Shown: piece after piece, positions 17,755 to 45,879 of the stretch
How the letters are laid out: every line of letters starts with the position of its first letter
How positions within the stretch are numbered: the stretch's first letter is position 1
Source: Isoetes taiwanensis
Taxonomy: Eukaryota; Streptophyta; Lycopodiopsida; Isoetales; Isoetaceae
Assembly: GCA_021234155.1 (NCBI GenBank)
Contig: JAJEKV010000104.1
Span: 1 to 64,000 of the forward strand
Direction of reading: 5' to 3'
Length of the DNA: 64,000 nt
The notes under the pieces: generated by a model
The model's database searches: none
Told to the model about the DNA's origin: nothing
Seen by the model: only the letters and a program-made list of their open reading frames with translations
Program-made: the position numbers and the translations under genes

Positions 17755-18692
17755 CACGAGATCCATCTATCATGTTCCCAAAGATGCTGCAATTTTAAGA
17801 TCCCATGGTCTCTCCATTTCTTAAAGATACGAGGATGAACTAATGCCAAGGGACGGCCATTCTCTTCCCATACATGAATGTTCCAGAATAAACTGGTTTT
17901 CCCAGCCTCTTGAGGTACAGCCAAGGGGGAACATACTATTTGCCTCATGATTGAGGAAGTGCCAGGGGCCACCTTAAAGTTACAGAAAGAGGCTCCTAAT
18001 TCATCCCTAGGGAGAGATGGTTTACCTTGAATCTTGCACAGATCAAACCAGTGCTTAACAAATGCCAAAGCAGGAGATGTACCCCCTTGTAAAACTCGCC
18101 AGACAAATCTGGCCGCCAGGGCTTGAGCCTGCGTAAAAGGATCCTTACATCCTATCCCTCCATCCCTTTTATCTCTACATAGCTCGGACCATGCAACGTT
18201 AGCCATACCCCCCCAGATGAATTTTCTAATGATAACCTGTATTTGATTATATATTCCTTTCTGGGCTACCAACACTGACGAGGAATATACGTGAGAGCTG
18301 GCCAGAACAGCATTAGCAACTGTTACTCTTCCTGCTACAGACAATCCTTTAGAAGACCATAACCCAACCTTCTTTCTAAGTTTCCAAAGGCCCTTCATAC
18401 TATATGAGACAGAAAGGGGCAAACCCAATAACTTAATCTGCTTTCCCCCCGCAGCCCACGACCGGGAAGCCCAATCCATTAGCGGGGAGGGTCAATATCC
18501 CCCTCTAAAGCCCATAAAATGGTACACTTGGTGGCATTTAGCCCAGTGCCTGATATAACCTCAAAAGCAATCAATATCTCACGAAAGGAATGAAAGCTAC
18601 CATCGTCATACCTGAGGAACATAAAGGTGTCATCCGCATATTGCATGATTGTGAGTTTTTCTGCTTGACTCGGTATAACCAGACCACTTATG
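17755..18692 (-). pseudogene. LINE reverse transcriptase second half, copy A
   Basis: The minus-strand ORF (18479 to 17673, then 18692 to 18479 in another frame) carries the catalytic block LTIMQYADDTFMFLRY, the RT thumb region (GLNATKCTILWALEGDIDPP, LGLPLSVS) and the long linker (KFIWGGMANVAWSELCRDKR). It matches copy B 40285-41259. Relative to B it lacks 28 bp near 17943 and about 20 bp near 18381, and has a frameshift near 18479. Its right end at 18692 is the insertion point of the DNA transposon; the last six bases, CTTATG (18687-18692), are that element's target duplication. Confidence 0.9.
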
Positions 18693-18757
18693 GGTCCTCG
18701 CACGTTACGGCGTCTCATAATTAGTGTCCTTTTGTCCACCCAAATTAGCACTATTTT
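18693..18757 (+). repeat. Left terminal inverted repeat of the transposon, copy A
   Basis: Starts GGTCCTCGCACGTTACGG and continues through CATAATTAG...AATTAGCACTATT. The first 18 bases pair well with the right end; the remainder pairs with gaps. On the minus strand this repeat also extends the LINE reading frame by about 20 artificial residues (ending MRRRNVRG). Confidence 0.8.
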
Positions 18758-18889
18758 TTAGTATTATGGGAAGAGGGAAATTCAAAATTAACGAGAATAT
18801 CGGGGGGTGGTTGATTCCCCCTTTCTCGAGGGAGAGAGATCTCGTTTCTTTCTTTCCATCCATTTTTTGTTCAGGCTTCTTGTGATCCA

Positions 18890-21800
18890 ATGACTAATGA
18901 CGAAGACAGGAGGCGGAAATGGCATTTGCAGAAGCAACGACAAAGCAAGATGAGGCAACAATTGTCAAATGAAAATTTAGATTGGAGTATTGAGCACTCA
19001 AAAAAGCAATTGCAACATGCAGCCTCCATAATCACGAAAACATTTTTGGATTTGACAGGTTCGATGTCTACAGACCAGAAGAAAGAAGTATGGCATCTAG
19101 TGGAGAACAGCAAAGTTATGCAGGTTGCAGTGTCTGATAAGGAAAAGATTGTTCATAGTGAAATTGTCGGTAGCATCCAAGAAACCATACAGCACGTGAA
19201 AGGAGTGGAGTCCAATGACAAATTAGCAGCAAAAAGAGCAGCATTAGTCATGGCACTTGGGAAGGTCAGGCATGGAAGCAAAAGATTAGCTGCCAAGGCT
19301 TTGGGAATTCATCCAAGGAATTGTTCCAGAGCTAAGAAGCACCGTGTTGCAATTAGTCATAAAAACGCATTGTGAGCTCTTGGGGGAAGGAAGAAGAGAA
19401 AGGATTCCCTGAACCAAGAAGTGATTGAAAAGTTGTGGATTATTGGACAAACTACACCAGAGTTTCACCTAACTTCAAGGACGTTAGATCTGGTAGAGGA
19501 AAACATCCTAAGCATCCAACACATTACCTTGATGTGAGCCAGGTATACTATCTGTAGATCAGTTTTTTACTAAGTCTTTTTTCACGTTTACTAATACTAA
19601 TATTTTTTATAAGTTTTGAAGTATTGATTCTAATATGATCTGCTAATGGAATTAATCTGCACGTTCTTCTCGTGGTAGCAAGTCTTAGTGCTATTGATGG
19701 TTGATAATGGATCATTTCTTGATATAGTGCTAAGGTTTCTCACCTTTATAATGTTGGTGCCACGTTTAGTAATTGTGTTGATGTTAGTGCCACTGTTAGT
19801 GATTTTGTAAATGACAGTGCTAATATTAGTATTTTCGTTAATGTTGTTCCACTGTTAGTAATTTTGTCATTGTTAGCACTAAACTTAAACTTTAGTTAGT
19901 GAAGCACTAACTACCACTACAGATTAGCAATGCTTTCATCTCAATGTCCTAGCACTGGTTAGTGGTTTGGTTTGCTAAGGGTTATGTTGTAATGCTAATG
20001 GAATCAGTAATTAGTTCTAATTTGCTATTCATTAGCAGTTGCTTTTTCTAGTGGTATTAGCATTAGCATTTACTAAGTAGTTTTCTATTCTTATTCTGCA
20101 GACAGAATTCTTCACTAGTTTCAAGCAAGACAATCCAGATGTTCAAATTAAGCAGAGAGCCTTCGAGAAATTAAAGCCTTACTTTGTTGTAAAGCTATCT
20201 GAATTCAATACCTGTTGTTGCGTCTATCATGAGAGGATGTCAATGCTGAGGGAAGGGGTGAAGAACATGAGGAAAAAGTCCATGGTGCACGGTGCAGATT
20301 GCACCTGTGATTGCAAGATATGTGACCACACGGCAAGCCAAGTAGGGTGCAATGCAGCAAGACATGTTTGGCAGTCTAACAGTGACATGTGGAGAAGCAT
20401 GGTTTGCCCAAAGCCTGAAGGTGAGGAGTGGCACAATGAAGCATGCTTGTCAGGAACCTGCAGCAAATGTGGTGTGGACAAAATGGAAAGGTGTCTAAAA
20501 GAAGAAACAAAGGACAGTACCTCAAAAATCACTTGGGAGAACATAGACTACATTGAAATTAGTAAGGATAAAAATGGCAAACCCAAAAAAAGAATTGAGC
20601 ATCAATATTTACAGACTTCTCCCAATGTTTTGATGGAAACCTTCAGATCTAAAGCAAAGGAGTTTGTGACACATAATTTCAGGTATAAATGGCAGCAAGC
20701 CATGTTTAGACAACTACTGAACATGTTTGATGATGATACTATTGTATCAGTGGTTGACTTTGCAGAGAATTACTCTTTCAAGGAGCAGAATGAAGTCCAG
20801 TCCAAGCATTGGCATAACGAGCAGATCACTATTCTGGTGCACCTCACATATAGAAGGGATCCTGAGACACAAGAAATGATCAAGGAAGAACATTTTTATA
20901 TATCTGATGACAAAAACATGATTCTTTGTTTGTGCAGCATTGCTTTCTCTTACACAATCATTGGATGCAAGAGAAGGAAATCACTTTGAAGAAGCATTAT
21001 GTCTTCCCAGATGGTGCAGCCTCACAATTCAAAGGTAAAAAATCATTTTACTTTGATGCTAGATTCAAATCTTTAACACGTTTAGACATGATGTGGAACT
21101 TTTGGTGCTCTGGCCATGGGAAGGGAGAACATGATGGTGCAGGAGCAGTAATAAAGAGGGCTTTGAGAGCAGCACAGTTGAAGGGCAACAAGATGACCAA
21201 TGCACACGAGATGGTGGAATGGCTAAAGCAAAGACATGTCAACAAAGAAGACCCACAACATATAAAAAAGAAGATTCAAACTGTAAGTAGAACTTTTTGG
21301 GAGGTTGAAATAGGACAAGTGGACAGAAAAAATCAGTGGGAAGCACGTCCTATTGAAGGATCTAGAAACCTTCATTGTTTCCATGGGTGTTCAAATCACA
21401 TGACACATTTTACGTGTCGAAAACCTCTTTGCTTTTGCACATATTGTTTAGATTTGAATTGGGAATCTTGCCCCAATGTATCATATACTAAGAAGTTTGA
21501 ACTAGTTGTGGTACAGCCCATCAAAGCTATTGTTGAAGAAGAAGTACATGATGAAGGAGAAGAAGCATATATTGGCAGCGCTGACTTATGTAGCATGCAA
21601 GTATCTATAGGTGATGTCTTTGCAGTGGTGGCTCCAAATAACAATCACGAGAATGTGAAATTCTACCTTATCCTATGTACCAAAGCTAAGTACTTGGTGT
21701 TATAAGACTTTGTAGATATGCAAGGGCGTAAGTTTGTGAAAGGGGATGAGGTCATAGAAGGGACATACTATGAGAAGTTGGTGAATTGTAAATCCAGCTA

Positions 21801-21966
21801 CAAGTTTTGTAGAGGAAATAAAGCAATTGTTTATGCCACTCAAGTTGCAAAGAACAAAGTCAGGTTGGTTCAAGCAAAGCACGTTGTTAAGCGGGGAGTG
21901 GTTTACACTCTAAGTGCCAAAGAAGAAGAAGATATTCTAGAGAGGCTTCCCACGTTGTTGGAATAG
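18890..21966 (+). pseudogene. Transposase-like gene of the DNA transposon, copy A (spliced, disabled as written)
   Basis: Exon 1 ends at 19542 (GTATAC donor) and exon 2 starts at 20102 (TTCTGCAG acceptor), giving VSQ-TEFFTSF across the junction. Residue blocks in order: basic helical N-terminus (RRRKWHLQKQRQSKMRQQ); TRVSPNFKDV; KLKPYFVVKLSEFNTCCCVYHE; two Cys clusters (CTCDCKICDH; CSKCGVDKMERC); then acidic landmarks suited to a D-D-E nuclease, SVVDFAENYSF, YVFPDGAASQFK and GHGKGEHDGAGAVIKR; then a Cys/His-rich stretch (CFHGC...CFCTYC) and a C-terminal region to LERLPTLLE. Shared with copy B are an in-frame TGA (19373), frame changes near 19430 and 20912-20916, and an in-frame TAA (21703). 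A start upstream is likely: a TTTTTGTTCAG acceptor precedes 18879, and ATG 18890 is absent in copy B. The transposase role is inferred from motifs and position. Confidence 0.65.
19543..20101 (+). repeat. Transposase intron rich in TAGTGC / TGCTAA motifs
   Basis: A 559-bp GT...AG intron with more than ten short motifs of the types GTTAGTGC, TGCTAA, TTAGCA and TAGCACTA. The same motif family, mostly in the opposite orientation, crowds 30000-30470 near the other end. This suggests subterminal transposase-binding repeats rather than plain intron sequence. AT-rich and otherwise featureless. Confidence 0.55.
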
Positions 21967-22079
21967 TGGAAAGAGCAATTGTATAAAGGGTAATCAGATA
22001 TGTACTTTTATGAATATAAAGAAGTTTCGTTTTGCATTTTCATTTTTATGCTTCGCCACGTAAATTTGTACTCGAATGT

Positions 22080-22660
22080 TGAATGAATTCCAAGTTAAAA
22101 CAGAATTAGAAATTTACACAAGGCCCAAATTTACACAAGACACAAAGCCATTACAATTAAAGGCACTGAGGCCTGGATTAAACAAAAGGCACAAGGCCTG
22201 GATTACAGTTTAAAACAGAAAATACCAGAATACTTCAAAAACAGAAAATATCAGATTCAAAAAGGCACAAGGCCATCATATATTCAAAAAGGCACTAAGG
22301 CCATCATATATTACAAAGAGGCACAAGGCCATTACAATTAAAGGCACCGAGGCCCGGATTAAAACAAAAGGCACAAGGCCCGGATTACGCTTTTAAAACA
22401 GAAAATACCAGAATACTTCAAAAACAGAAGATACTCAGATTCAAAAAGGCACAAGGCCATAATATATTCAAAAAGGCACTAAGGCCATCATATATTACAT
22501 CATATATTCAAAGAGGCACAAGGCCATTACAACCAAAGGCACTAAGGCCTGTTTCACAAGGGGGTGAGATCAACAAGGGGGTGAGATCAAATGAAGGCAC
22601 TAAGGCCTATATACCATCTGTTTTTTAAAAAAAAATACAAAGGCACAAAAGGCCTGTAGA
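22080..22660 (+). repeat. Tandem array of GGCAC(A/T)AAGGCC units
   Basis: Downstream of the transposase gene, about 580 bp consists of imperfect repeats of AAAGGCACAAGGCC or AGGCACTAAGGCC linked by ATTACAATTA, ATCATATATTCA or GGATTA. A higher-order doubling is visible: the block with AAAATACCAGAATACTTC recurs once. It ends in a poly-A stretch (22671-22690). It is present in copy B at about 44690-45280. Confidence 0.8.
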
Positions 22661-22787
22661 TGAACTTGATCAAAAAAAAAAAAAAAAAAAGGTGGCACAG
22701 CCTGGGACTTCAAGCTTCATCAGAAGAAAAAGTAAAGAAAATTAGTTTAGAATACGTAAAAGAAAGCAAAAATTGAATGCATGCATG

Positions 22788-23240
22788 CTACTTACTACTG
22801 AGAAAATTTTGGAGTTCCAAAAAATTCATGTTCTTCTTCGTCTTCTTCTTCCTCTTCTTCTTCTTGGCCCCGGTCTTCGCCTCCATTCGTTATCAGAATC
22901 TTGGGAATCAATTTGATCATCGAAGAAGCTTCATCGAGGAATCGAATTAGAGGAGGATTCCACAAAGGTGGAATCTGCTCGAGCTAAGAGGTGGCTCGTG
23001 GCTCTGCTCGTACTCGTGGGCTCATTCAGGCCTCGTGCTCTGCCCCGCAAATGAAAATTGGCCAAGATCCTATGCCATAACTGGCAAGGACCTCCGCCAA
23101 AGGAATTGAAAGCGATTTCCGGCTTATGAGGGCGTGGGAGGTAGAGCGAGAGCGAGAGGGAGAGGCGAGTGGAGGGGAGAGCAAATGGCCGACATCTCGT
23201 TGGAAGGAATTGGACGATGCTTCTCCTTCACGACCACCAT
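22788..23240 (-). pseudogene. SR/acidic small ORF, copy A (frameshifted)
   Basis: Same locus as the intact 160-residue ORF in copy B (45379-45861). Here it is broken by several indels, many at sites where copy B reads CAG or CTG (for example CATCGAAG against CATCAGAAG, CATCGAGG against CATCAGAGG). Residual matches are the LSIPLAEVLASYGIGSWPIF stretch and the SPSRSRSTS region. The breaks may be sequence errors rather than true mutations. Confidence 0.55.
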
Positions 23241-23249
23241 AGCCTATAA

Positions 23250-26200
23250 AGGTCGGGCGGAAATTAATTTCATAGGCTACGATTTTAGGATTTCGTATCA
23301 TTAGTATCTTAATTGTAATGATTTAGTAGGATACTTAATAATTACCTCTAAAATGACCATTATTTTATTTTCTAAAAACATACAAAAAATATATATATAT
23401 ATATTAAGACTTAGCGGGTTTGGCGGTGCCATATGCCTTTGCATTATTGAAACTATTGATGCAATTTGTCTAAAAATTTTCTAAATGGTTGAGGAGGGTT
23501 TGAATTGCAATAATAGTAGATCAGCTAATTTCTTTAGTATAGTTTCATGGCTTATCAACTATGGCACCCCAAGTGCATCTCGAGCTCCACCAAATAATGA
23601 TGATTTGTTAGATTCTGCCTAAGCACTCACACCGGGTTGTAGAAGTTGATAAGCAATAGCAAAGCTCCACCAAATCGATGATTTGTTAGATTCGCCTAAG
23701 CACTCACACCGGGTTGTAGAAGTTGATAAGCAACAGCAAGATTAAATTGTGCACTATTGAATGATCGTCGACAAAGTGAAAGTGTTATGAGGTTTTTAGT
23801 TTTATGGTGAAACACACATATGCAAATATGGATAAAAGCAAGTGGGTAGACCATGACAAATAGTTAGTTATAGGGAAGAGATTTATCTATCTAGCAAGGA
23901 TTATTGGCTCTCATGGAACTTTACCTATGCCATGTCAAGTCTATATCTGTATGTAATGTATTTGATGTCTTCGTTCTTCAATGTTATTTTATATTAAACG
24001 CGTATACATTTTCAATAGATGTAGGAGGAAGTGCATTTTTTCTGGGAGGCGATAAAGTAACGTACCTATCTATATACCCCACATTTGCGAATTGGGAATG
24101 ATCGCAAAATGAGGAGCTAATTGCTAATGAATAAGGATAAATCTAACTGAATTTTCGACCGAATAATTTCCTTTCTGCAATACTATTTTGGTTGTGAGCA
24201 TATATACAATTGGATTTCTTCTGATATGCTTCAATTGTTATGTCTAGAAGATAACCACACCAATCAAATTTAGAATTCAGTCACAAAATCTGGTGTTAGG
24301 CAACTAGGGGTCCCTATAATACGTATCATTGCTTGATTAACATGTATATTCGCCTCTTTTGCCATGTCATGTTGGGCGCCATTTTTTTCATCAAATAGCT
24401 TCATGTGCCGATGAAAAATGAGCCCTTTGCATTGTTCATGCAAGTATGTTGGAACTTTAACTGTCCCTATACCTATCTCAACTCTAGTGCCCCAATCTAA
24501 TATAGCCATACACATGAAAATTTTGTTCTGTGGGATGGCATAGCAGTGGTTTTAGATAAGCAAAGACATTCGGTTTGGACATAAAATCCCCCTAATCTAC
24601 TACTCTCAAGGCCAACACAACATTTAGCAGACACCATACAAAGAGACATGTAGCACGTTGAATGTCTTTGTCCCTAAGCTCCTTGTACAAATGTGCAAGT
24701 ACTCATCAAGCATAAAGAGACATTGCATGTGCAATGTCATCATTCGTATGAGCCATCAAGAAACTCTCATATTTGAACATCAAAGACATTAGCCTAAGAT
24801 CACACATTTAATGGATGCTTGAAGTATGTGGTTGATAGGGCCCGTAGAAAAGTGAATATGAACAAACTATCTGCATTGCAGTCAAAGGATTATATCTTCT
24901 AAATAACAAAAATTAAATAACAAAAATGACGGTTGCTAACGTTTGCAAAAGTAAAAGCAAGTTATCTCATGAGTTCTAGCAAGATCCCAATTCTCAGATA
25001 TACTACTATGCACCATGATTGTAAGCAAACGAACATTAAGGTCTATACAAACATTAAGGTCTACTTTTGAAGATTTTATTGACTGGCAAGGACCTACCTT
25101 ATAAAAGAATGTGTTTATCAGTTTGAACATTTCCTAAGATTAATGCTTCCACTATGGATAGGTGAATTTTGGATGGACACCCTCTGGAATATGTTAGGTG
25201 CATGCAATATATCTTTTATAATCCTGTTCACCACGGCATCATAGACACCTCAAATATTTTTGGGTGGTGCAAAATGTTCATTTGCAAATACTTAGGCGTT
25301 TGAAAATAGGTCTTATTGGTTGCGGAAGATATTTCTGCATCAATTTGCAAGGGACGACAAAGCACAGGCTCCCAAAACATCCTGCATACTGGAAACTTAG
25401 GTATTGAAGGAAAAATCACAAGTATGACCTTGCCATAAATGGCTATGGCGTTGAAAACAGGGGATTTCGGCCCAAAATGGATCTCTTATTCATTCTTAGA
25501 GCAAAGCCCTGATTTGCAGCCTTTAGAGCAAGACTCAAAGCCCGCCTGACACAAAATTAGAGTTGCCGGATTGGAGCATATACACTTCTGAATCTCAGAA
25601 TTTTTCTTTCTCTGTGGCACGCTGCTTATCCAGAAAGTTTCCTTCGACCCAACAGCCCTCTTGCAACGCCCATATACAGCTCCAGTGATGTGCTCAGAGC
25701 CTAAAAGTCTTCAAATAGGATCTGCGAAGCCGCAAATTGGGCCTCAGGGCCCTTAAATCAAAAGTTTGAACCCTGTTTTGCTCGATAGGTCTCAAAATGG
25801 GTCTCTAAACCCTGTTCTGCTTGATGGGTCTGCGAATTGGCTTGGCAATCTGGAAATCCAACCTAGTAATAGCCAAATTACGCTAGTCCTACATTGCTCG
25901 CTGACCCCATGCACATCAAGAGCTATTTTCGCCCGTGAAATTTTTACCAAAGGAGTTGAATTTGAGCAAACAATCTTAGCCATGAGATATAAGTCAGACA
26001 TCCATTCCAAATAAGAACATCACGCATAAGCTATACATTCGTTTCAAAGACGGCAAAATTTTTAGCCCATCACCAAAGATCTTGCTCTCGGTTATAACAG
26101 CAGAGCCTATTTTCGACTTAGCATAAGCTTCAAAGGGCTTTGATGGCCGCACCATGAGCTCAGCCAAGGGTTTGAGCTATGGGAGCTCGTTGTTCTTAAA

Positions 26201-26415
26201 ACAAACCGTCCAATAGGCGGGAAACAAAAAGGACACGACTAATTCTAATTTTGGCCCATTTTTGCCGGAAAGATAGATATTGATAATTCCAAAAAGGCAG
26301 CTAGTAATCTTATATATAGGAAGATATATATCTATCCTGAAATGGCCATTCTTTTTTGGACACCAATCGCACTTGTTTAGTAATTCTAGTTATAATTAGC
26401 TAGTGTAAATTGATT
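23250..26415. other. Central non-coding part of transposon, copy A
   Basis: About 3.2 kb, AT-rich, with only short ORFs. Two minus-strand ORFs have plausible composition: 24515-24270 (opening MCMAILDWGTRVEIGIGTVK) and 25419-25228 (FPVCRMFWEPVLCRPLQI). I do not recognise either. The second has a donor-like GTAGGTCC in its neighbourhood, so a decayed spliced gene is possible. At 25770-25850 there is a short internal duplication (AACCCTGTT.TGCT.GATGGGTCT). Otherwise nothing identifiable. Confidence 0.4.
23582..23741 (+). repeat. Two-copy tandem repeat, about 80 bp, copy A
   Basis: AGCTCCACCAAAT...GATAAGCAATAGC is repeated at once (second unit from about 23662). In copy B the units are 78 bp each (46203-46280, 46281-46358). 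No function evident. Confidence 0.8.
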
Positions 26416-26945
26416 GTTGACTTACGCTTCACCAAACATGTTGGTCAATGAAAGTCAAACATGTAACAAAGGGGGTGATTCACACTTGTTGACTTGAAAA
26501 TTGTTGTCTTACACAACAATGCCTTAACATAATGCATATAATAGCATAGGTCAAAATTGTTGACTTACGCTTTACCAAATGCTTGGGGTTGATTCACATG
26601 GAAATTGTTGACTTAACCAATTTATGCCTTAACATAATGCATAGAATAGCATAGGTCAAAATTGTTGACTCATGATTTACCAAATGCTTGGGGTTGATTC
26701 ACATGGAAATTGTTGACTTAACCAATTTATGCCTTAACATAACGCATAGAATAGCATAGGTCAAAATTGTTGACTCATGATTTACCAAATGCTTGGGGGT
26801 TATTCACACTTGTTGACTTGAAAATTGTTGATAGCGCTTTTACTTAAACAAGGTTGGTCAATGAAAGTAAAACTTTAGCTTAGGGGTGATTCATACTTGT
26901 TGACTTGAAAATTGTTGATTTACGGCTTTACCATGGTCAATAAAA
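26416..26945. repeat. 105-bp tandem repeats packed with TTGAC (W-box-like) motifs, copy A
   Basis: A 105-bp unit (CTTGGGGTTGATTCACATGG...AAATTGTTGACT) recurs at 26582, 26687 and 26792. Flanking partial units share the TTGTTGACTT and GGTCAA motifs. I count about nine TTGAC on the plus strand and a similar number of GTCAA. TTGAC(C/T) is the core of the W-box bound by WRKY factors. Copy B has one more unit. Confidence 0.75.
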
Positions 26946-27712
26946 GTCATATAAAAGGATTACATCTAAAAGGATTACATCTAGAAAGGTCATGACACTC
27001 TCGCCTGTAACTGAAGATTACAAGCCAGAGAGCCATTGTTGGGATTATCAATGTTATATGATTATTCCTTAAGGGAAGTTGATAGCACTTTGCTCATACC
27101 TAAGGGTTATCATGTATTCAGGTTGAGGGACAAGCAGAAAGGCAGTTTGATCTTCATGAGCAAACACGGTTGAAGAATGAAGAATAGAGTTTGCATTAAG
27201 TCCAAAGATTACACATGAGGTGAGTTAATTATTAAGCTATATTTGTTTCAATGGTTCAATGGTTCGAGGGCATAGAATGATTCAAATGCATGTGGGATAT
27301 TGATATGCAAAAACCCTGTTGACCTCGAAAACGTGAGAACGCCTGTGGGATATTTTGTTGGGCAGAAAAGAGAAAATAGCAAGACCAAGAATGCCGCGGC
27401 CGTCGAAATGGGTACAATCACCGATCATTATATAACGTAGATAAGATTGAAGGAGTTGCCATGGTGTGGAGACAAAGGTAATCGGCTACTATAATCGAGT
27501 GCTTGGGCTCTCGGGGCAAATCATAAAGGATATGAATGTGAATGCTACATAATATAATCATATCCATTTGAACAGTGCTGACTATCCATTTGAGCCCACT
27601 ATAACGGGAACTGCATACCAGAGAATTATAAAGTTCTTTAAACGTTTGTGGTGTTCATAAACACCAAATTACAATAAAAAAGGGATCTAATATTAAAAAA
27701 GCATACAACAGT
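26946..27712. other. Non-coding stretch between W-box repeats and RING/FCP1 gene
   Basis: No ORF of note on either strand. It contains a small duplication (AAAAGGATTACATCT twice, about 26953-26983) and an inverted pair CTCTGGCCTGTAA / TTACAAGCCAGAG (about 27000-27030, clearer in copy B), which could form a stem. It probably includes the 3' flank of the minus-strand gene. Confidence 0.4.
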
Positions 27713-29933
27713 TTAGGTCAAGTCCATGGTCTTTAGTACCTCCAACACTTTTGTGCTTTTCTCGTCATACTGATTTCGAAAATGCACAGACCTCTGTACA
27801 TAAGCAATTACGTTCACTTCTGTTATTAGCTTCTCCAAGTAAGGTACCATAGTCTTCAACAGGTAATCACCGTCATTTATGTCAGGCACGAAGGACCTTG
27901 GTGTGATGCAGGAATCTGCATTATTCTTAAAATTCACATACCTGTAAGGATCAATCAGCTGAGTGATTGGAAGACCATATACCAACAGCAAAATGTTCGG
28001 TGACGAATTGCATGAACTGCACTGCCCCTGGCCTGACAGCAAGAACCTCTTTTCTTGATGGATAAAGTTGGACACCTTCCACCACATCAGGTACTGCTTC
28101 AGCCTTTTTGAAAACGTTGTACAGGAAATCTTCTGGCTCAATAACCAAAAGCTTCTTGCCAACAACACTAGCACTGCAATGACAACTATTAGAGAAATTA
28201 TATCAGTACAACAGGCAGAAAGAAACACACTAGAATCACCTTATTTTCTTAGTTATTGATTTGGATGGAGCTCGTTTGCTGGAGGAAACCTGCTTGGAAT
28301 TATTCTTAGAAGGAGATTCTCCAACTGATGCCAAATCACTTTCTTCCTCTGTGATTGTCTTCTCCACAATATCAGCACGTTTGTCCAAATTGGAAACATA
28401 ACCATCTACATTCTTCAACACTGCTTCACATTCTTCATTTATTACTTGCACGGCATTGTCTTCAATTCTGTTAGAAATGTCAACTATAGAGTTTGAAATA
28501 TCCAAACTTGAGCCTGCATCATTCAAATTATCAAACTAAATAAGTACTTATAGAAGAGAAATCCAAAGTAGTTATACTTCACAAGAATAACTTACTTTTC
28601 AGTCTTTTACAACTATTACTTTGTTCAGCATTGTCTCTCTTCAAGTTTGGGCTTATGGAAGATAATAAAGTGCAATCTTCAATGGATTGCATAATTATAC
28701 CAGGCTCCTCCAAGTTAGCAGGTGTGCTTAATGATGGATCTTGAGTGCATTCAATGGACTGCACTGCACTATAATTGGGAGCAGAATCCAGTGCAGATCT
28801 ACATGGAAGTCCAATGGACCTGAACCAATTATGAGGCGTCTGGCTCTCACAAGAGGGACAAGTTGATCTCTTTGAGAAACATATGTAAGCTAAATTGATG
28901 AAAACTGTGCATGCAATGTGCAACAATGGTCGAGACACAAAGTGGGTCATAGGCATATGTACGTAAAGAACAACTTTGTAATTTTGCAAATGCTACGGTA
29001 GAGAATGTTGGATGTTCCAAAATGGAAGGTTGAGTTGCAGTCCGCACATCTTATTTCGAGAGATGAAGCTATTTCATTCAACTTCTCCAGCCTTTGGTTG
29101 GAGTCTATGTTCGTCGCCTTCACTTGTTTAAAAATAATTAAAATGATGAAGCGTAAAGAATAATTATTGAGCACTATGTAATTGCAAAGGTCATTAGCAA
29201 TTACCCCTTTGTGAATTTCCTCCATACTCTTGTATGTCCGTTGTCGCCTCAAAAGTTCCTTTTCCTTGAAACCAAAGATTGACGACATGAATGTAATGAC
29301 ACCTTTGGAGTGCTCACATCCGCCTTTGTCGCTTCAATTTGTTGTTTTGCAAAGATCCACCTCGCACCGCACTTCTTCCACAACTTCCTTTTTTCCTTCA
29401 TTTCATTGGCTGCACTTTTAACTCTAACATTCAAGTCATCCCTTCGCTTATCTAAGCCAAAGAATCAAGGAGTTGATGACGTAATAGTCCACTACACGAC
29501 CAACAACGTTTTATATGAGGAAATGAGGCCTCATACTCACCTTCTTTCTCAACCTTAGTTTGTAACACTTTTCTTCGCTTTTAACCACAAATGATCGCCG
29601 GTTAATCTTTTGTCCTCTCACATACAAAGTGAATGCCTGTGCAAAAACTTCCCAATCTCTCCAACACAAACATCGGGTTCTTTGGTAACATCTTCTGTAG
29701 ATGTTCATAAACTGATCCACAAATAGTGGATTCATTCGACTAGACTTATAAATTTGCTTGGTACCCACCAGTTTTACACAGCCAAATATTTTGCTTATCT
29801 CATCTTCAGCCACATCTGCCTTTCTTACATCTGAAGAGGTCATGCCCTCAGAAGGCAACACAGATGTGTCAAACATCCTCCTTGCTTCCTCTTCGTCTAT
29901 GGTCACTTTAGGTTGAGTTTTCTTTGTTGCCAT
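27713..29933 (-). pseudogene. Multi-exon coiled-coil / RING-like / FCP1-like gene of the transposon, copy A
   Basis: Minus strand, start ATG at 29933 (MATKKTQPKVTIDEEEARRM). Exon 1 reaches about 29544 (GTGAGT donor). Exon 2 (NVRVKSAANEMKEKRKLWKK) begins a coiled coil that continues through KSMEEIHKG. Then come RCADC and HCMHSFH...CPSCESQTPHNW, a RING-like zinc finger; a Ser/acidic linker (SLDISNSIVDISN); and KLLVIEPEDFLYNVF, VEGVQLYPSRKEVLAVRPGA, FAVGIWSS, LIDPYRYVNFKNNAD and SFVPDINDGDYLLKTMVPYL, the blocks of an FCP1/NIF-like HAD phosphatase. The catalytic D-x-D-x-T is replaced by I-E-P-E-D, so activity is unlikely. Copy A lacks 162 bp (54 codons) present in copy B just after GIWSS, deleted between AATCA direct repeats. 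The domains could belong to more than one transcript. Confidence 0.6.
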
Positions 29934-29999
29934 TCTATCCCTGCACCAGCTTTGAAATTATATATCACTGGAAGTTCTTCATTGTGTCTGCAAAAAACT

Positions 30000-30480
30000 A
30001 AACCAATCCAAATCATAGCACTAAGTATCCTGAATAGTACTAACTCTAAGAGCTTAGCAATGAACTGCTACTTTTTCCAAATAATTACTAATTGTCATGA
30101 ACACCAATTACCTTGGGCCTACTGTCTGCAAATTAGCAAATGCTTAGCATGTCATGCTAAATAGCAGCTAACTCTTTCTAACTTAGCACTGAACTTCATC
30201 TTCTTAGCAACCGCCGCTAATAACAATTTGAGCCTGCAAGTGTAGCACAAAATTCGCGTTCTTAATGTAACCTGCTACTTAGCAAATGTTGCCTGCAAAC
30301 ATAGCACGAAATCACTAAGTAACTCGGGTACACAGAACATACTAACTAGCAAGTACTGCCTGCGAAACGTAGTACCAATATAACCTGTTAGCATAATTTG
30401 CTAACTGATTGTCTGCAAACATAGTACCAAATGCTAACCTCGTTAGCATCAACTTACTGAACTTGCACGACCAAACATTA
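30000..30480. repeat. TAGCA-rich subterminal region, right side, copy A
   Basis: TTAGCA, TAGCAC, TAGTAC and GCTAAC recur every 15-30 bases (for example TTAGCAAATGCTTAGCATGTC, GTTAGCATAATTTGCTAAC). The counterpart is the motif-rich intron near the left end. The region also overlaps the likely 5' leader or intron of the RING/FCP1 gene. Confidence 0.6.
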
Positions 30481-30719
30481 CTTTCCGATGATACCTCTCC
30501 ACAGCTGGAATGCAATCCTCCACACCTGCTACATTAACCTTTATCTTCAATATAGAAGCATGAAATATAATAGAATGAAACCATTTCCACATTATTTACC
30601 ATTCCCAAAGATTTGTCAACAAAGATTAGATGCTTACCACTAAAACAACTTTTCTTGAGTCTGGGAAATTGTTCAGATGAGCAATTTGATCCGAGCTCTT
30701 TACAAAGCAGAGTAATGGG

Positions 30720-31010
30720 ATCTCGATTGTCTGGCAATCGATTGTTTAGAATGGTACAAATAACCGAATTCGATAATTACTGCTGTGGAAGCAGCACAGT
30801 CACAGCAATTTACTCTGGCCAGTTAACCAAGCAGGGAAATGGGATCTCGATTGGGAATTTTGTTGAATCTAATGACTGGCAATTGTTTAGAATGGTACAG
30901 ATAACGGATTTCGATAATTACTGCTGTGGGAGCAGTACAGTCACAGCAATTTGATCCGGCCAGTTAACCAAGCAATGTACGGGGATCTCGATGGGGAGCA
31001 GCTATGTTTC
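30720..31010. repeat. Imperfect tandem duplication near right end, copy A
   Basis: The block TTGTTTAGAATGGTAC.. followed by TTCGATAATTACTGCTGTGG, CAGTTAACCAAGCA and GGGATCTCGAT.GGG occurs twice, starting at about 30743 and 30886. Each unit is about 145 bp. It contains CAG-rich stretches that are scrambled in copy B. Confidence 0.7.
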
Positions 31011-31126
31011 TGAATCCGATCCAAGAAACTCCAAGAAAGTAGGAAAGGGGGAAAGGTTCGACGGTTTAGGATCCCATGGGCGGGATTTAGTGCTAAAAAA
31101 ATTTTAAAAATTCAGTTAAACCCCCT

Positions 31127-31191
31127 TAATTAGCGCTATTGTTTAGGGCTAAAAATGGCGTCATTTATGCCACCCGTAGCGTGCGAAGACC
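31127..31191 (-). repeat. Right terminal inverted repeat of the transposon, copy A
   Basis: Reverse complement begins GGTCTTCGCACGCTACGG then GTGGCATAAATGACGCC and AATAGCGCTAATT. It is followed on the plus strand by the target duplication CTTATG (31192-31197) and LINE sequence. Confidence 0.8.
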
Positions 31192-31197
31192 CTTATG

Positions 31198-33257
31198 CCC
31201 CCTTCCAAAACTTTGAGATTAACCATCCTTGTGAGAAGGTTGGCCATAATTAAAAAAAGGTATGGGGCAAGCGGGCAGCCCTGCCTAATACCCTTCCTGA
31301 GATCAAAGAGACCAGAAGGCTCGCCATTAACCAAGACAGATGCAGAGGCAAATTTGTTCATTCCCATTGAAATGTCGATACAATGTTTATTGAATCCCAT
31401 ATGGCTAATCACTTCTCGCAGAGCATCCCACCTAAGGGAGTCATAAGCCTTTCTAAAATCCATCTTAATAAGTACACAGCTTTGCCGTGTAGATCTGCAC
31501 CAATGCATTCCTTCTCTAGCCGCTAGATAGTTGTCCAAAATATATCTACCTGGCAGAAAAGCTGATTGCTCCCTTCCAATAACCCTGTTTAGGATAGGCT
31601 TAAGACGGTTGGCGATGCCTTTCATAATTACCTTATATAAGACATTTGTTAGTGCAATGGGACGCCATTCCCCAAGTGATAGAGGTCTAGAAACTTTTGG
31701 GACCAAGGTGATGAATCCCGCAGCTAGAGTAGGATGTAATGAGCAAGAGGACCAAGCCCCCAAACAGCCTTCACAAAGTCCGGTCCAAGAGCATCCCTTA
31801 ACTCCACAAAGAATTCGGGAGGAAAGCCATCGGGGCACTGGGACTTACTAGAGGCCGAGAGCATAGTACTTTAAATATCTCATCTTCGCCTACCGAATAA
31901 TAAAGTTTGGTTGTCATCCACAAGTAATCTTATGTGCCCAATCAATGCGGGCCAACCAAAGAGAGATTTGGGATTGATAAGAGGATGGGAGATTTGTGCG
32001 CTTTGAATTGAGCCGAAAAACCGCCCCGAATAAATGCCTTGATACCCCGGGATCAAGAAGTGTGTTTTGACAATTTTCCTTAATTGAAGTAATCTTGTTT
32101 CTCGCTAATCCGCCCCTGCCATTCTAAAGAAGCACTTAGAATTTTCATGGTCTGACTCCGCATACCACTTTGTTTTGGAACGGACCGCAGCCCCCCTAGC
32201 TTCCTCCTCCTCAATAGCTTTGGCTTTTGTTTCCAGTTCCTCCTCTAAGGATTGCTTGTCTCTATTATGGGGATCTAGTAACAGTTCCTGCTTGACTACC
32301 CTTAGAAGGTTATATACGGCATCTTTTTCTTTCTTGAATTTCAAGCACTTATCCTTGCCCCATTTCTTGATCCACATTTTCATAAGGCTAATCTTTTTAA
32401 CCCATGCCTTCATGGAAGGGAGGCCTTCCGTATTAGTTAGAGAAGCCAAGAAAGTCCTAAAGGGACTGCAGAAAGCCTGCTTCCCGAGTAGAGAGGTATT
32501 AAACTTGAAAGGCACATTCCCTCCTCTTCTTTTAGTAGGGATACTCTCCAATACTAACTTTTGTGGCACATGGTCTGAATGCGAGAAAGCAAGCTCTCCT
32601 TCGACATAACATCTTTCCATGAAGGAGGCTGTCCTATTAGCCATGTAGAACATGTCTAATAAGCAAGATATACTGCCTTGCCCCTTCTGCTTATTAGACC
32701 AGGAAAATGCAGCGTTAGATGGAGGAATTAGGGAGAAGCCAACGCTGTTTAAAAGAGAGTTCCACGCAACTTCTTCCTTTTATAGCAAATTCCTGTGCAG
32801 CCCATTTTTTGATCCCATACATCCGGTCATATTCAAATCCCTCCAAGGATCCAATTTTCAACTCCACCACCTTGATGAGTTATCCGAGCTCAATTTCTCT
32901 CCACATCACTGCCCTTTCAGTCGGTATATTAGAGGCATAAATGTTGATGAGCCCCCACATACAATTCTTTGTTTCAAGAATTACAACCTGCCATCTACCA
33001 CACCCTCCTGCATATTGATATTTTTGGACTTGTCCCTTCCACGTATCTGAGGTGCCTCCTTTAGTTCCTTTAGCAAGACAACTAAAGGAGGAGTAATTAC
33101 CTCCATTCCAGCTACCAATAGACCTGGCCTCAAAGTCTGGAAGTCTATGCTCCTGTAGAAGGATGACATCCACCTTCATAGATCTGATAGCTGCTAACAC
33201 TCGCCCACGCTTAAGAACACCCTTGATGCCGCGCAAATTCCATGAGACGATAATCAT
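31198..33257 (-). pseudogene. LINE ORF2 first half (endonuclease and RT fingers/palm), copy A
   Basis: Starts at MIIVSWNLRGIKGVLKRGRV (33257), an APE-type endonuclease. Visible blocks are SWNLRG, ILLQEHRLPDF and SHSDHVP (catalytic SDH). Next is a linker with a long basic helix (KKWGKDKCLKFKKEKD), then RT: LVPKVSRPLSLGEWRPIALTN, KMDFRKAYDSLRWDAL and GIRQGCPLAPYLFLIMAN. It ends in LKVLEGG where the transposon cuts in; the second half is at 17755-18692. It is frameshifted near 32880 (the GGDLN motif region is scrambled) and 32105-31850. An L1-type LINE of plants by domain order. Confidence 0.88.
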
Positions 33258-39264: not shown

Positions 39265-41259
39265 TTTTTTTTTTTTTGAGGGTAAGAGTGTGTTTTTTGT
39301 TATTAATAATAATAATAAAGATCTGAGAGAGTCCCCAATTGGGACAAATAGGAAGCATTAGGGCTATTATACGGGTTCTCTATGCATCAATGATGTGTGT
39401 ACTAAGGGAAGTCCTATTTCCACAACAAAGATAATGGTAGAGAGACCTATTTCCCGCCCGGGTCGAGACCCTCGATTGCTTTCTCCACTAAACTCAGATT
39501 GTTCCACCATTAGATCTATCATGAAAGTCTAGGTCCTCAGAGCTCATCTAATGGCACTTAAAGTAGTTATAAAATCCTTCAATCTTACCAATTCTGTCCA
39601 ATCCCTTATTGTAACTCGTCCCCATCTTCCTATGGTGGGACAATGCCATTAAAACAACTTCCTTATTGAAAAGACTCTTAAGTTTCTCAATAGAGATGGA
39701 TTGCCCCCCCCAAAGTGACATCGCACCGATGTCTCCATATAATCCAGAGAGCCACGCTAACCAGGGAAGCATCAATACAATCTCTGTCCAAGATCATTAC
39801 AACGTTCGGCCACCCAAGTTGGTGTATATGTAGTCTCATAATAGGGCATACCCAATACCAAAATTCAATAATTTTTGGACAGAAGAAGAGATGTGAAAGA
39901 GATTCGCTAGCCTGGCACCCAAGAGGACATAGGTCTGTAGACACAATTCCTCTATGGACCAGCTTCACTTTAGTGTTGAGACCTCCTTGGAGAGCCTCCC
40001 ATCTAAAAAATTGTATTCTCCTAGAGCATAAGGTTTTCCAGGAGTTTGCTAAGAGGAGCTTAGCCGCTGATCCGTTCACTTGAAGCCTAGCCTCTGCTTT
40101 AAGAGGAGAGTCATCACAAAGGGCCCGATAGATACTTGCAACATTGTATGTCTCCTTACCTGCACAGAACCACTTTTTCTCAGGACCAGTAGCCCCTGAG
40201 AGGAGCTTAACATTATCTAGAATTTTTCGTAGTATCTTTCTATCTCCCTCCCCTGCTCTTTGCACTTTGAGTCTAAATTCCATCCACGAGATCCATCTAT
40301 CATGTTCCCAAAGATGCTGCAATTTTAAGATCCCATGGTCTCTCCATTTCTTAAAGATACGAGGATGAACTAATGCCAAGGGACGGCCATTCTCTTCCCA
40401 TACATGAATGTTCCAGAATAAACTGGTTTTCCCAGCCTCTTGAGGTACAGCCAAGGGGGAACATACTATTTGCACCTCCCTCCAAGCATGAAGAATACGC
40501 CTCATGATTGAGGAAGTGCCAGGGGCCACCTTAAAGTTACAGAAAGAGGCTCCTAATTCATCCCTAGGGAGAGATGGTTTACCTTGAATCTTGCACAGAT
40601 CAAACCAGTGCTTAACAAATGCCAAAGCAGGAGATGTACCCCCTTGTAAAACTCGCCAGACAAATCTGGCCGCCAGGGCTTGAGCCTGCGTAAAAGGATC
40701 CTTACATCCTATCCCTCCATCCCTTTTATCTCTACATAGCTCGGACCATGCAACGTTAGCCATACCCCCCCAGATGAATTTTCTAATGATAACCTGTATT
40801 TGATTATATATTCCTTTCTGGGCTACCAACACTGACGAGGAATATACGTGAGAGCTGGCCAGAACAACATTAGCAACTGTTACTCTTCCTGCTACAGACA
40901 ATCCTTTAGAAGACCATAACCCAACCTTCTTTCTAAGTTTGTCTAAAATAGGAGCCCAAAGGCCCTTCATACTATATGAGACAGAAAGGGGCAAACCCAA
41001 TAACTTAACTGTTTCCCCTGCAGCCACGACTGGGAAGCCCAATCCATTAGCAGGAGGGTCAATATCCCCCTCTAAAGCCCATAAAATGGTACACTTGGTG
41101 GCATTTAGCCCAGTGCCTGATATAACCTCAAAAGCAATCAATATCTCACGAAAGGAATGAAAGCTACCATCGTCATACCTGAGGAACATAAAGGTGTCAT
41201 CCGCATATTGCATGATTGTGAGTTTTTCTGCTTGACTCGGTATAACCAGACCACTTATG
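39265..41259 (-). pseudogene. LINE 3' half (RT second half, zf-RVT, tail, poly-A), copy B
   Basis: The minus strand reads from the transposon junction (41259) as ISGLVIPSQAEKLTIMQYADDT, then RT thumb, the long linker, and the zf-RVT region (RRIQFFRWEALQGGLN; CPLGCQASESLSHLFFCP). The continuous ORF runs 41318-39687, but its first 20 or so residues come from the transposon end. A run of Cs near 39703-39710 shifts the frame just before the end; the C-terminus continues in another frame (to about 39548). The poly-A tail appears as a run of 13 T at 39265-39277. Together with 54072-56441 this is an essentially whole ORF2. Confidence 0.9.
40285..40289. other. Empty integration site for the gypsy element in copy B
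   Basis: CACGA occurs once here, within TTCCATCCACGAGATCC. In copy A the same five bases flank the 14.7-kb gypsy element on both sides (3005-3009 and 17755-17759). Confidence 0.9.
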
Positions 41260-41457
41260 GGTCCTCGCACGTTACGGCGTCTCATAATTAGTGTCCTTTT
41301 GTCCACCCAAATTAGCACTATTTTTTAGTATTATGGGAAGAGGGAAATTCAAAATTAACGAGAATATCGGGGGGTGGTTGATTCCCCCTTTCTCGAGGGA
41401 GAGAGATCTCGTTTCTTTCTTTCCATCCATTTTTTGTTCAGGCTTCTTGTGATCCAA

Positions 41458-44400
41458 GGACTAATGACGAAGACAGGAGGCGGAAATGGCGTTTGCAGAA
41501 GCAACGACAAAGCAAGCAAGATGAGGCAACAATTGTCAAATGAAATTTTAGATTGGAGTATTGAGCACTCAAAAAAGCAATTGCAACATGCAGCCTCCAT
41601 AATCACGAAAACGTTTTTGGATTTGACGGGTTCGATGTCTCTGCACTTAAAAAAGAAGTATGGCATCTAGCGGAGAACAGCAAAGTTATGCAGGTTGCAG
41701 TGTCTGATAAGGAAAAGATTGTTCATAGTGAAATTGTCGGTAGCATCCAAGAAACCATACAGCACGTGAAAGGAGTGGAGTCCAATGACAAATTAGCAAG
41801 CAAAAAAAGCAAAGATTAGTCATGGCACTTGGGAAGGTCGGGCATGGAAGCAAAAGATTAGCCGCCAAGGCTTTGGGAATTCATCCAAGGAATTGTTCCA
41901 GAGCTAAGAAGCACCGTGTTGCAATTAGTCATAAAAACGCATTGTGAGCTCTTGGGGGAAGGAAGAAGAGAAAGGATTCCCTGAACCAAGAAGTGATTGA
42001 AAAGTTGTGGATTATTGGACAAACTACACCAGAGTTTCACCTAACTTCAAGGACGTTAGATCTGGTAGAGGAAAACATCCTAAGCATCCAACACATTACC
42101 TTGATGTGAGCGGGTATACTATCGTAGATCAGTTTTTACTAAGTCTTTTTTTCACGTTTACTAATACTAATATTTTTATAAGTTTTGAAGTATTGATTCT
42201 AATATGATCGCTAATGGAATTAATGCGACGTTCTTCTCGTGGTAGCAAGTCTTAGTGCTATTGATGGTTGATAATGGATCATTTCTTGATATAGTGCTAA
42301 GGTTTCTCACCTTTATAATGTTGGTGCCACGTTTAGTAATTGTGTTGATGTTAGTGCCACTGTTAGTGATTTTGTAAATGACAGTGCTAATATTAGTATT
42401 TTCGTTAATGTTGTTCCACTGTTAGTAATTTTGTCATTGTTAGCACTAAACTTAAACTTTAGTTTGAAGACTAACTAACTACCACTCTGATTAGCAATGC
42501 TTTCATCTCAATGTCCTAGCACTGGTTAGTGGTTTGGTTTGCTAAGGGTTATGTTGTAATGCTAATGGAATCAGTAATTAGTTCTAATTTGCTATTCATT
42601 AGCAGTTGCTTTTTCTAGTGGTATTAGCATTAGCATTTACTAAGTAGTTTTCTATTCTTATTCGCATGTAATTCTTCACTAGTTTCAAGCAAGACAATCC
42701 GGATGTTCAAATTAAGCGAGAGAGCCTTCGAGAAATTAAAGCCTTACTTTGTTGTAAAGCTATCTGAATTCAATACTGTTTGTTGCGTCTATCATGAGAG
42801 GATGTCAATCTTTGAGGGAAGGGGTGAAGAACATGAGGAAAAAGTCCATGGTGCACGGTGTGCATTGCACTGTGATTGCAAGATATGTGACCACCACCGG
42901 CAAGCCAAGTAGGGTGCAATGCAAAGAAGACATGTTTGGCGATCTACTTGGTGACATGTGGAGAAGCATGGTTTGCCCAAAGCCCGAAGGTGAGGAGTGG
43001 CACAATGAAGCATGCTTGTCGGGAACCCGCAAACAAATGTGGTGTGGACAAAATGGAAAGGTGTCTAAAAGAAGAAACAAAGGACGATTACCTCAAAAAT
43101 CACTTGGGAGAACATAGACTACATTGAAATTAGTAAGGATAAAAATGGCAAACCCAAAAAAGAATTGAGCATCAATATTTCTGAGACTTCTCCCAATGTT
43201 TTGATGGAAACCTTCGGATCTAAAGCAAAGGAGTTTGTGACACATAATTTCAGGTATAAATGGCGACAAGCCATGTTTAGACAACTACTTGAACATGTTT
43301 CTTGATGATACTATTGTATCGGTGGTTGACTTTTGCAGAGAATTACTCTTTCAAGGAGCGAGAATGAAGTCCGGTCAAGCATTGGCATAACGAAAGCGAG
43401 ATCACTATTCTTGTGCACCTCACATATAGAAGGGATCCTGAGACACAAGAAATGATCAAGGAAGAACATTTTTATATATCTGATGACAAAAACATGATTC
43501 TTTGTTTGTGCAGCATTGCTTTCTCTTACACAATCATTGGATGCAAGAGAAGGAAATCACTTTGAAGAAGCATTATGTCTTCCCAGATGGTGCAGCCTCA
43601 CAATTCAAAGGTAAAAAATCATTTTACTTTGATGCTAGATTCAAATCTTTAACACGTTTAGACATGATGTGGAACTTTTGGTGCTCTGGCCATGGGAAGG
43701 GAGAACATGATGGTGCAGGAGCAGTAATAAAGAGGGCTTTGAGAGTAGCACAGTTGAAGGGCAGCAAGATGACCAATGCACACGAGATGGTGGAATGGCT
43801 AAAGCAGTACATGTCAACAGCAGCACCCACAACATATAAAAAGAAGATTCAAACTGTAAGTAGAACTTTTTGGGAGGTTGAAATAGGACAAGTGGACAGA
43901 AAAAATCAGTGGGAAGCACGTCCTATTGAAGGATCTAGAAACCTTCATTGTTTCCATGGGTGTTCAAATCACATGACACATTTACAGGTCAAAAACCTCT
44001 ATTGCTTTTGCACATATTGTTTAGATTTGAATTGGGAATCTTGCCCCAATGTATCATATACTAAGAAGTTTGAACTAGTTGTGGTACAGCCCATCAAAGC
44101 TATTGTTGAAGAAGAAGTACATGATGAAGGAGAAGAAGCATATATTGGCAGCGCTGACTTATGTAGCATGCAAGTATCTATAGGTGATGTCTTTGCAGTG
44201 GTGGCTCCAAATAACAATCACGAGAATGTGAAATTCTACCTTATCCTATGTACCAAAGCTAAGTACTTGGTGTTATAAGACTTTGTAGATATGCAAGGGC
44301 AGAAGTTTGTGAAAGGGGATGAGGTCATAGAAGGGACATACTATGAGAAGTTGGTGAATTGTAAATCCAGCTACAAGTTTTGTAGAGGAAATAAAGCAAT

Positions 44401-44539
44401 TGTTTATGCCACTCAAGTTGCAAAGAACAAAGTCAGGTTGGTTCAAGCAAAGCACGTTGTTAAGCGGGGAGTGGTTTACACTCTAAGTGCCAAAGAAGAA
44501 GAAGATATTCTAGAGAGGCTTCCCACGTTGTTGGAATAG
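41458..44539 (+). pseudogene. Transposase-like gene, copy B (spliced, more frameshifts)
   Basis: Same gene as 18890-21966. The intron starts at 42114 and ends near 42669 with a garbled acceptor (TTCGCATGT in place of TTCTGCAGACAG). Between 42100 and 43430 nearly every difference from copy A falls on a CAG or CTG of copy A. From 43440 to 44540 the two copies agree closely, including YVFPDGAASQFK, GHGKGEHDGAGAVIKR, the shared frame change (A-run 43488-43492) and the shared in-frame TAA before DFVDMQGQKF. Here WLKQYMSTAAPTT replaces WLKQRHVNKEDPQ, and HMTHLQVKNLYCFC replaces HMTHFTCRKPLCFC; copy B looks the more natural of the two at these points. Confidence 0.65.
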
Positions 44540-44689
44540 TGGAAAGAGCAATTGTATAAAGGGTACTGTATATGTACTTTTATGAATATAAAGAAGTTTC
44601 TGTTTTGCATTTTCATTTTTTATGCTTGATTCTGCTTAGTAAATTTGTACTTTCGAATGTTGAATGAATTCCAAGTTAAAAGCGAATTA

Positions 44690-45280
44690 GAAATTTACAC
44701 AAGGCCCAAATTTACACAAGACACAAAGCCATTACAATTAAAGGCAATCGAGGGCTGGATTAAACAAAAGGCACAAGGCACGGATTACGGTTTAAAGCGA
44801 GAAAATACCGAATACTTCAAAAAGCGAGAAAATACCAGATTCAAAAGGCACAAGGCCATCATATATTCAAAAAGGCACTAAGGCCATCATATATTACAAA
44901 GAGGCACAAGGCCATTACAATTAAAGGCACCGAGAGGCTGGATTAAACAAAAGGCACAAGGCACGGATTCTGATTTAAAGCGAGAAAATACCGAGAATAC
45001 TTCAAAAGCGAGAAGATACTCAGATTCAAAAGGCACAAGGCCATAATATATTCAAAAAGGCACTAAGGCCATCATATATTACATCATATATTCAAAGAGG
45101 CACAAGGCCATTACAACCAAAGGCACTAAGGCCTGTTTCACAAGGGGGTGAGATCAACAAGGGGGTGAGATCAAATGAAGGCACTAAGGCCTATATACCA
45201 TCTGTTTTTTAAAAAAAAATACAAAGGCACAAAAGGCCTGTAGATGAACTTGATCAAAAAAAAAAAAAAAAAAAAAAAAG
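44690..45280 (+). repeat. GGCACAAGGCC tandem array and poly-A run, copy B
   Basis: Same array as 22080-22690, with GGCACAAGGC(C/A) units and the doubled AAAATACC-GAATACTTC block. It ends in a run of about 24 A (45257-45280). Confidence 0.8.
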
Positions 45281-45378
45281 GTGGCACGACCCGGGACTTC
45301 AAGCTTCATCGTAAGAAAAAGTAAAGAAAAAATTAGTTTAGAATCTGTAAAAGAAAGCAAAAATTGAATGCATGCATG

Positions 45379-45861
45379 CTACTTACTACGCAGAAAATTT
45401 TGGAGTTCCAAAAAAAATTCATGTTCTTCTTCGTCTTCTTCCTCTTCTTCTTCTTCGGTCTGGTCTTCGCTCCATTCGTTATCAGAATCTTGGGAATCAA
45501 TTTGATCATCAGAAGAAGCTTCATCAGAGGAATCGAAATTAGAGGAGGATTCCACCTCTTCTGAAAGCTCCGAAAGATCTTGAGCTTTTCGGTAAGAGGT
45601 GGAATCGAGCTCGAGCTCTCGTGCTCGGGGCTCGGGTACTAGGCTCTCAGGCTCGGGCTCCTGCAAATGAAAAATTGGCCAAGATCCTATGCCATAACTG
45701 GCAAGGACCTCTGCCAAAGGAATTGAAAGCAGTTTCCGGCGCTTATGAGGGCCAGGGGAGGTAGAGCGAGAGCGAGAGGGAGAGGCAGAGCTGGAGGGAG
45801 AGCGGCAGCGCTTCGACATTCTGTTGGAAGGAATTGGACGATGCTTCTCCTTCACGACCAT
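45379..45861 (-). CDS. Small SR-like / acidic protein of the transposon, copy B
   Basis: Intact 160-residue minus-strand ORF. The N-terminal third is basic and Ser/Arg-rich (KRCRSPSSSASPSRSRSTS, then PHKRRKLLS, a likely nuclear localisation signal). The middle has a short hydrophobic motif (IPLAEVLASYGIGSWPIFHL). The C-terminal half is highly acidic (SSNFDSSDEASSDDQ; a run of glutamates in TEEEEEEEDEEEHE). No enzyme domain is recognised. Acidic, nuclear-looking accessory proteins are known beside some transposases, but that role is only a guess here. It lies downstream of and convergent with the transposase gene, after the tandem array. Confidence 0.6.
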   Translation of the reverse strand: MVVKEKHRPIPSNRMSKRCRSPSSSASPSRSRSTSPGPHKRRKLLSIPLAEVLASYGIGSWPIFHLQEPEPESLVPEPRARELELDSTSYRKAQDLSELSEEVESSSNFDSSDEASSDDQIDSQDSDNEWSEDQTEEEEEEEDEEEHEFFLELQNFLRSK

Positions 45862-45879
45862 AGCCTATAAAGGCTGGCG

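Follow-up and report, generated by a model that had tools for sequence, protein, structure and literature searches.

What kind of mobile element interrupts a long interspersed nuclear element (LINE) in Isoetes taiwanensis, and how long a target duplication did it make on arrival? The locus lies in a 64,000-nucleotide stretch of contig JAJEKV010000104.1 (hereafter the window), for which the original prediction had described a DNA transposon with a 6-bp target duplication, a non-matching transposase, and several cargo genes. We found the insertion to be a decayed copy of a multicopy plant DNA transposon family with 4-bp target duplications. It encodes a predicted D-D-D transposase with an integrase-like fold, and a convergent partner gene with a NIF/FCP1-like phosphatase domain accompanies it.

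Element ends, copies, and target duplication

The ends, the flanking repeat, and the restored host frame all confirmed that a genuine transposon lies within the LINE. The inverted ends matched at 16 of 18 positions, and CTTATG stood on both sides (18687-18692 and 31192-31197), as had been claimed. Removal of the element and one repeat copy rejoined VLEGG to ISGLVIP in a LINE frame of 286 codons between stops. In a comparison of this empty site against solved structures, the restored frame aligned with human LINE-1 ORF2p across the junction; a single 3-residue gap precedes the junction by three residues. The LINE also carries a zf-RVT domain, which is typical of plant LINEs and fits a plant host. 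Chance is an unlikely source of the end pair: no pair with a 6-bp repeat exceeded 15 of 18 end matches in 10 Markov-resampled windows, that score being reached twice, and the real window held three pairs with at least 16 of 18, namely this element and two inside an inverted repeat at 61395-61879.

The length of the duplication was ambiguous from this one insertion, because its empty site (CCACTTATGCCC) is compatible with three repeat lengths: 6 bp with GG..CC ends, 4 bp with GGG..CCC ends, or 2 bp; the flanks read CCAC-TTAT-GGGTCC on the left and GACCC-TTAT-GCCC on the right. Using the left end of the window element as the query against the 1.66-Gb genome, we scored 40 matches at 95 to 100% identity among 220 candidates, 3 of the 40 being on the window's own contig. 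Twenty stretches with left ends were fetched from the 37 matches on other contigs, and right ends were located in nine of them once five of the 20 had been lengthened by a total of 4.4 kb. The two ends thus recur together elsewhere in the genome, the copies lying on many contigs and having different flanks, and the element is a member of a multicopy family. The eight other complete copies span 7.6 to 10.9 kb, with terminal inverted repeats (TIRs) matching at 17 to 18 of 19 positions; they finish with GGACCC, and the window element starts with GGGTCC and finishes with AGACCC. One further stretch, L026, holds three left ends in succession in the same orientation over about 4 kb; its fetched sequence includes no right end.

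These copies settled the length. The base preceding the GGTCC-type start was G in all 20 fetched left ends, indicating that the G at 18692 is part of the element; the query itself contained this G, yet matches could begin later, as did that of L028 at query base 8. Among the nine other copies for which we located the right end, eight had an exact 4-bp direct repeat beside GGG..CCC-type ends, and the eight duplications were all different (TGTA, CTGC, CATT, AGCT, AATA, TCGA, ACAA, and ATGT). Among the nine insertions with an exact repeat, a 6-bp repeat was seen in the window copy and L024 only, where flanking bases by chance equal the end bases of the element, and the remaining seven had 4 bp only. 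The outer bases of the supposed 6-bp repeat, the G at 18692 and the C at 31192, recur as element bases. The target duplication is therefore 4 bp, not 6 bp as predicted, and the element occupies 18692-31192. A single insertion may mimic a 6-bp duplication in this way whenever the target bases match the element ends.

Both ends are also rich in the hexamer TTAGCA or its complement, with 12 copies per 1.5-kb end (P = 8.6e-9 for each end), and it ranks first among the 466 six-letter words common to both ends. Among the other complete copies, the left 1.5 kb contained 9 to 13 copies in seven of eight and none in L024, where an insertion accounts for the loss, and the right 1.5 kb contained 10 to 12 copies in all eight. 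As these counts come from related copies, they speak of conservation and are not independent proof; the arrays are candidate transposase-binding sites.

The transposase and its partner gene

The transposase gene of the window copy can be read through its lesions as a protein of 836 amino acids, with relatives in Klebsormidium and several animals. In alignment A1, made from 51 of the 60 relatives obtained by the protein search, the first two aspartates of the triad are present in all 51 rows and the third in 50 (one gap), the second and third being 40 to 41 residues apart. A structure model of one relative, P0001, has an RNase H fold in which D240 follows strand 1, D323 follows strand 4, and D364 sits on the last helix, the positions expected of the acids in an RNase H-fold (DDE/D) transposase. 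The fold list obtained with VIA-align comprised mostly retroviral integrases, consistent with an integrase-like fold; the absence of other folds from that list is no evidence. The non-matching transposase of the original prediction was upheld, since the transposase had no Pfam match above a curated cut-off. No Pfam transposase family matched any of the 51 A1 members at E ≤ 0.01, and no NCBIfam model matched the six family members examined. Of the PDB sequence searches with the transposase, one was empty and the other gave four weak rows (best E, 0.033), and a profile search with the animal relatives gave six proteins, none of them named a transposase. The protein thus appears to belong to a eukaryotic transposase family absent from Pfam, with a D-D-D triad predicted to be catalytic, and a widespread transposase lacking a Pfam model is here documented in a multicopy family.

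Several related metagenomic frames start, by eye, near the junction at the inferred intron, an observation that is no more than suggestive. P0013, the relative from Klebsormidium, resembles a gene model to which leucine-rich repeats have been fused, an example of how easily transposases of this kind are mistaken for host genes in annotation. The C-terminal part of another relative, P0040, is an OTU protease domain (E = 2.9e-7). As for a viral or prokaryotic origin, there were no relatives in IMG/VR or, with A1, in GTDB genome contigs. L001, found with A3, is a 4-kb contig of a bacterial metagenome-assembled genome with a 705-amino-acid open frame of the transposase family; judged from its protein, it is probably contamination from an animal, and a search of the contig for an end pair gave none.

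Of the several cargo genes that had been proposed, one partner gene was supported, and the region 23405-26323 proved to be a later insertion. The partner protein has an N-terminal region, a coiled-coil-like part, cysteine pairs, and a C-terminal NIF/FCP1-like HAD phosphatase domain, the NIF match having an E value of 4.1e-5 in the joined window read and 4.6e-9 in the last exon of L025, which is open. Four parts of the gene were looked for in the 20 stretches, some of which end before that region, and turned up in 9 to 11 of them. The NIF match in L020 does not belong to that stretch's own family copy: read in the orientation of the match, the second half of L020 contains a diverged transposase of the same family, its frame broken as by an intron, and, convergent with it, a NIF gene of its own (E = 2e-12). 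The transposase/NIF pairing therefore recurs beyond the window family. The first catalytic motif reads KKLLVIEPED in the window family and LLIIDLNG in the diverged L020 gene; compared with the usual motif, the former looks degenerate and the latter closer to the usual form, suggesting that a scaffold role is possible for the partner protein. A search of the window with Rfam gave nothing at gathering thresholds.

Mechanism and placement among known superfamilies

We consider it likely that the family moves by cut-and-paste transposition with 4-bp duplications, carried out by its DDD transposase. An RNase H/integrase-fold transposase, supplied by other family copies, would bind the ends, probably aided by the subterminal TTAGCA arrays. 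The element would then be excised at GGG..CCC and inserted by a 4-bp staggered cut, giving rise to the 4-bp target duplication. The partner protein may target either host transcription or the transposase itself.

Sola groups are very diverged from one another. Sola elements combine a DDD transposase with a 4-bp duplication and have been recorded in bacteria, animals, and a moss (PMC10741241); their TIRs are 11 to 1,124 bp long, and their sizes are 2 to 9 kb, some exceeding 15 kb (PMC10741241, PMC3627910). The present family shares the 4-bp duplication and the predicted DDD triad, and its TIR length and size lie in the Sola range. It is also close to the amoebozoan Sola2 elements, with 12- to 21-bp TIRs, an 888-amino-acid transposase, and AT-rich duplications (PMC3627910), compared with 19 bp and 836 amino acids here. 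A 6-bp duplication, the main argument of the original prediction for an unusual superfamily, falls away, as the combination of 4 bp and DDD is that of the published Sola description (PMC10741241). A Sola-like placement is thus the one toward which we lean, with some reserve.

Other known superfamilies fit less well. IS3EU and Polinton, the comparisons initially offered, fail on the 4-bp duplication. IS3EU/GingerRoot elements resemble this family in their integrase-like transposase and in their reported occurrence in a clubmoss and in animals, but they have 6-bp duplications and mostly TA..TA ends (PMC10045372) instead of 4 bp and GGG..CCC. In rust fungi, IS3EU families with TET/JBP and alpha-kinase include an alpha-kinase gene on the opposite strand beside the transposase (PMC12730594), a likeness in having a second, oppositely oriented gene for a signaling-type enzyme; there the enzyme is a kinase and the duplications are 6 bp, whereas here a phosphatase-like domain goes with 4 bp. 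Polinton was rejected on the same duplication length, and no Polinton polymerase or capsid Pfam domain was found in the 10 frames scanned, a subset of the window frames. Dada elements share an RNase H-type enzyme with N-terminal cysteines, but they have 6- to 7-bp duplications, no TIRs, RNA-gene targets, and, in Dada-U6_DR, 175 residues from the second D to the E (PMC3706591), compared with 4 bp, TIRs, and 40 to 41 residues here. Ginger1 and Ginger2 share an integrase-related transposase and 4-bp (some 5-bp) duplications, but they have TGTNR ends instead of GGG..CCC, with TIRs of 40 to 270 bp and similarity to Gypsy integrases (PMC2836005). Tc1/mariner was rejected for its 2-bp TA duplication. 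We found no paper naming this family in literature searches on 6-bp plant superfamilies, IS3EU and GingerRoot, Klebsormidium elements, and the DFAENY motif, and we make no claim that it is unpublished; neither Sola nor IS3EU was found in the text of PMC5718144.

Several observations weigh against the interpretation of the element given above. L016 has a decayed right end and no repeat, and no right end was located within the fetched stretch for 11 of the 20 copies (L010, L011, L013, L015, L018, L020, L021, L022, L026, L028, and L029). The modeled structure is that of the relative P0001, not that of the broken window protein, and the partner frame is broken in the window as well. Foldseek by itself yielded no persuasive structural match (best, NurA; E = 2.8e-4, TM-score 0.09), and weak unrelated Pfam matches occurred, namely DUF6597 in 2 of the 51 A1 members (best, 0.00024; below the cut-off for P0001) and three others in one member each. 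With residues 1 to 600 of the joined partner read, no homologues were found at E ≤ 0.001; its NIF region had no relative in PDB (best E, 0.035, a TetR regulator), and the ends of the suspected second element in L020 were not found. Sola was compared by description only. The AWWT duplications of Dictyostelium fasciculatum Sola2 (PMC3627910) fit none of the nine duplications here, of which 25 of 36 bases are A or T as counted by eye, and a NIF/FCP1-like partner is absent from the excerpts of published Sola descriptions consulted.

The ends and flanks can also be read in other ways. A DNA transposon whose true duplication length is 6 bp, whether related to IS3EU/GingerRoot or a member of some undescribed 6-bp group, would explain the CTTATG that flanks the window copy exactly and the 6-bp repeat of L024, and an integrase-like fold suits either length; the independent insertions in the same genome, most with 4 bp only and with the outer G and C as part of the element, nevertheless refute this reading, which we hold to be very improbable, and the TA..TA ends of IS3EU (PMC10045372) also disagree with those found here. 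Still less credible is that no transposon is present and that a large insertion or assembly artifact mimics one through regional duplication. The whole region is indeed repeated at 95.7 to 97% identity with clustered differences, but copies are spread over many contigs and differ in their flanks and duplications, which refutes this explanation, too.

A weightier alternative is a separate, unnamed eukaryotic DDD superfamily with 4-bp duplications and a NIF/FCP1-like partner, outside Sola but using the same mechanism. The lack of Pfam and NCBIfam matches described above and the duplications other than AWWT would suit it, but 4 bp with DDD is already covered by the published Sola description (PMC10741241), and we regard it as possible, though doubtful. 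We give less credence to a broader, rather unlikely proposal, in which a separate integrase-fold DDD superfamily ranges across streptophyte algae, plants, and several groups of animals and the FCP1/NIF-like partner of its plant branch would act on host transcription or silencing in favor of the transposon.

Feature coordinates and the surrounding duplication

Table 1. Positions of the transposon, its parts, and associated features in the window
Feature	Position	Strand	Remark
Whole transposon	18692..31192	+	12,501 bp, including the later nested insertion
Left terminal inverted repeat	18692..18710	+	17 of 19 match to the right one
Right terminal inverted repeat	31174..31192	-	
Left 4-bp target duplication, TTAT	18688..18691		Length set from other copies
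Right 4-bp target duplication, TTAT	31193..31196		Length set from other copies
Left subterminal array	18745..20068		TTAGCA/TGCTAA, 12 copies; putative sites of transposase binding
Right subterminal array	30054..31096		12 copies of TTAGCA/TGCTAA
Transposase exon 1	18890..19542	+	Stop and frameshift, same in second window copy; boundaries inferred from comparison with P0013
Transposase intron (GT..AG), inferred	19543..20101	+	Acceptor differs in second window copy
Transposase exon 2, D-D-D triad	20102..21966	+	Frameshift near 20910 and stop at 21703-21705, both also in second window copy
Possible third frame, acidic 161-amino-acid product	22800..23270	-	Status unsure; open in second copy (45379-45864), not in first
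Later insertion, about 2.9 kb	23405..26323		Absent from the eight other complete copies
Partner gene, several exons (inferred)	27713..29933	-	Convergent with transposase; about 157 bp missing near 27955 in window copy
Interrupted LINE reverse transcriptase, upstream half	31197..31844	-	Host of the insertion
Second copy of the same insertion	41259..54066	+	Carried by segmental duplication; right inverted repeat diverged

The element lies in a 20.8-kb segment, 17755-38525, that is repeated in tandem at 40285-61396. The second window copy is part of this segmental duplication and not an independent insertion; farther along the contig, at C913:69973, there is a third copy that shares the left flank. 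The transposase lesions checked (exon 1, near 20910, and 21703-21705) are identical between the two window copies, suggesting that the element probably decayed before the segment was duplicated, and only the second copy has an altered start codon and splice acceptor. The two copies differ in clusters, 409 of 625 neighboring differences lying within 10 bases of each other where about 207 were expected; this may reflect gene conversion or uneven assembly quality. The nested insertion is flanked by ATATATAT within an AT microsatellite, and its absence from all the other complete copies marks it as later; L024 lacks a larger stretch covering this region.

Other repeats were noted in the window. 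A 1.66-kb sequence, in which no gene was identified, occurs twice in tandem at 14424-17749 (95% identical) and once more upstream at 3009-4628 (about 91%). A 105-bp tandem repeat with recurring TTGAC is present at 26413-26950 and 49042-49648; one of these copies has about three units, the other four. Bordering the segmental duplication is an inverted repeat with 152-bp arms that are 97% identical (61395-61546 and 61728-61879).

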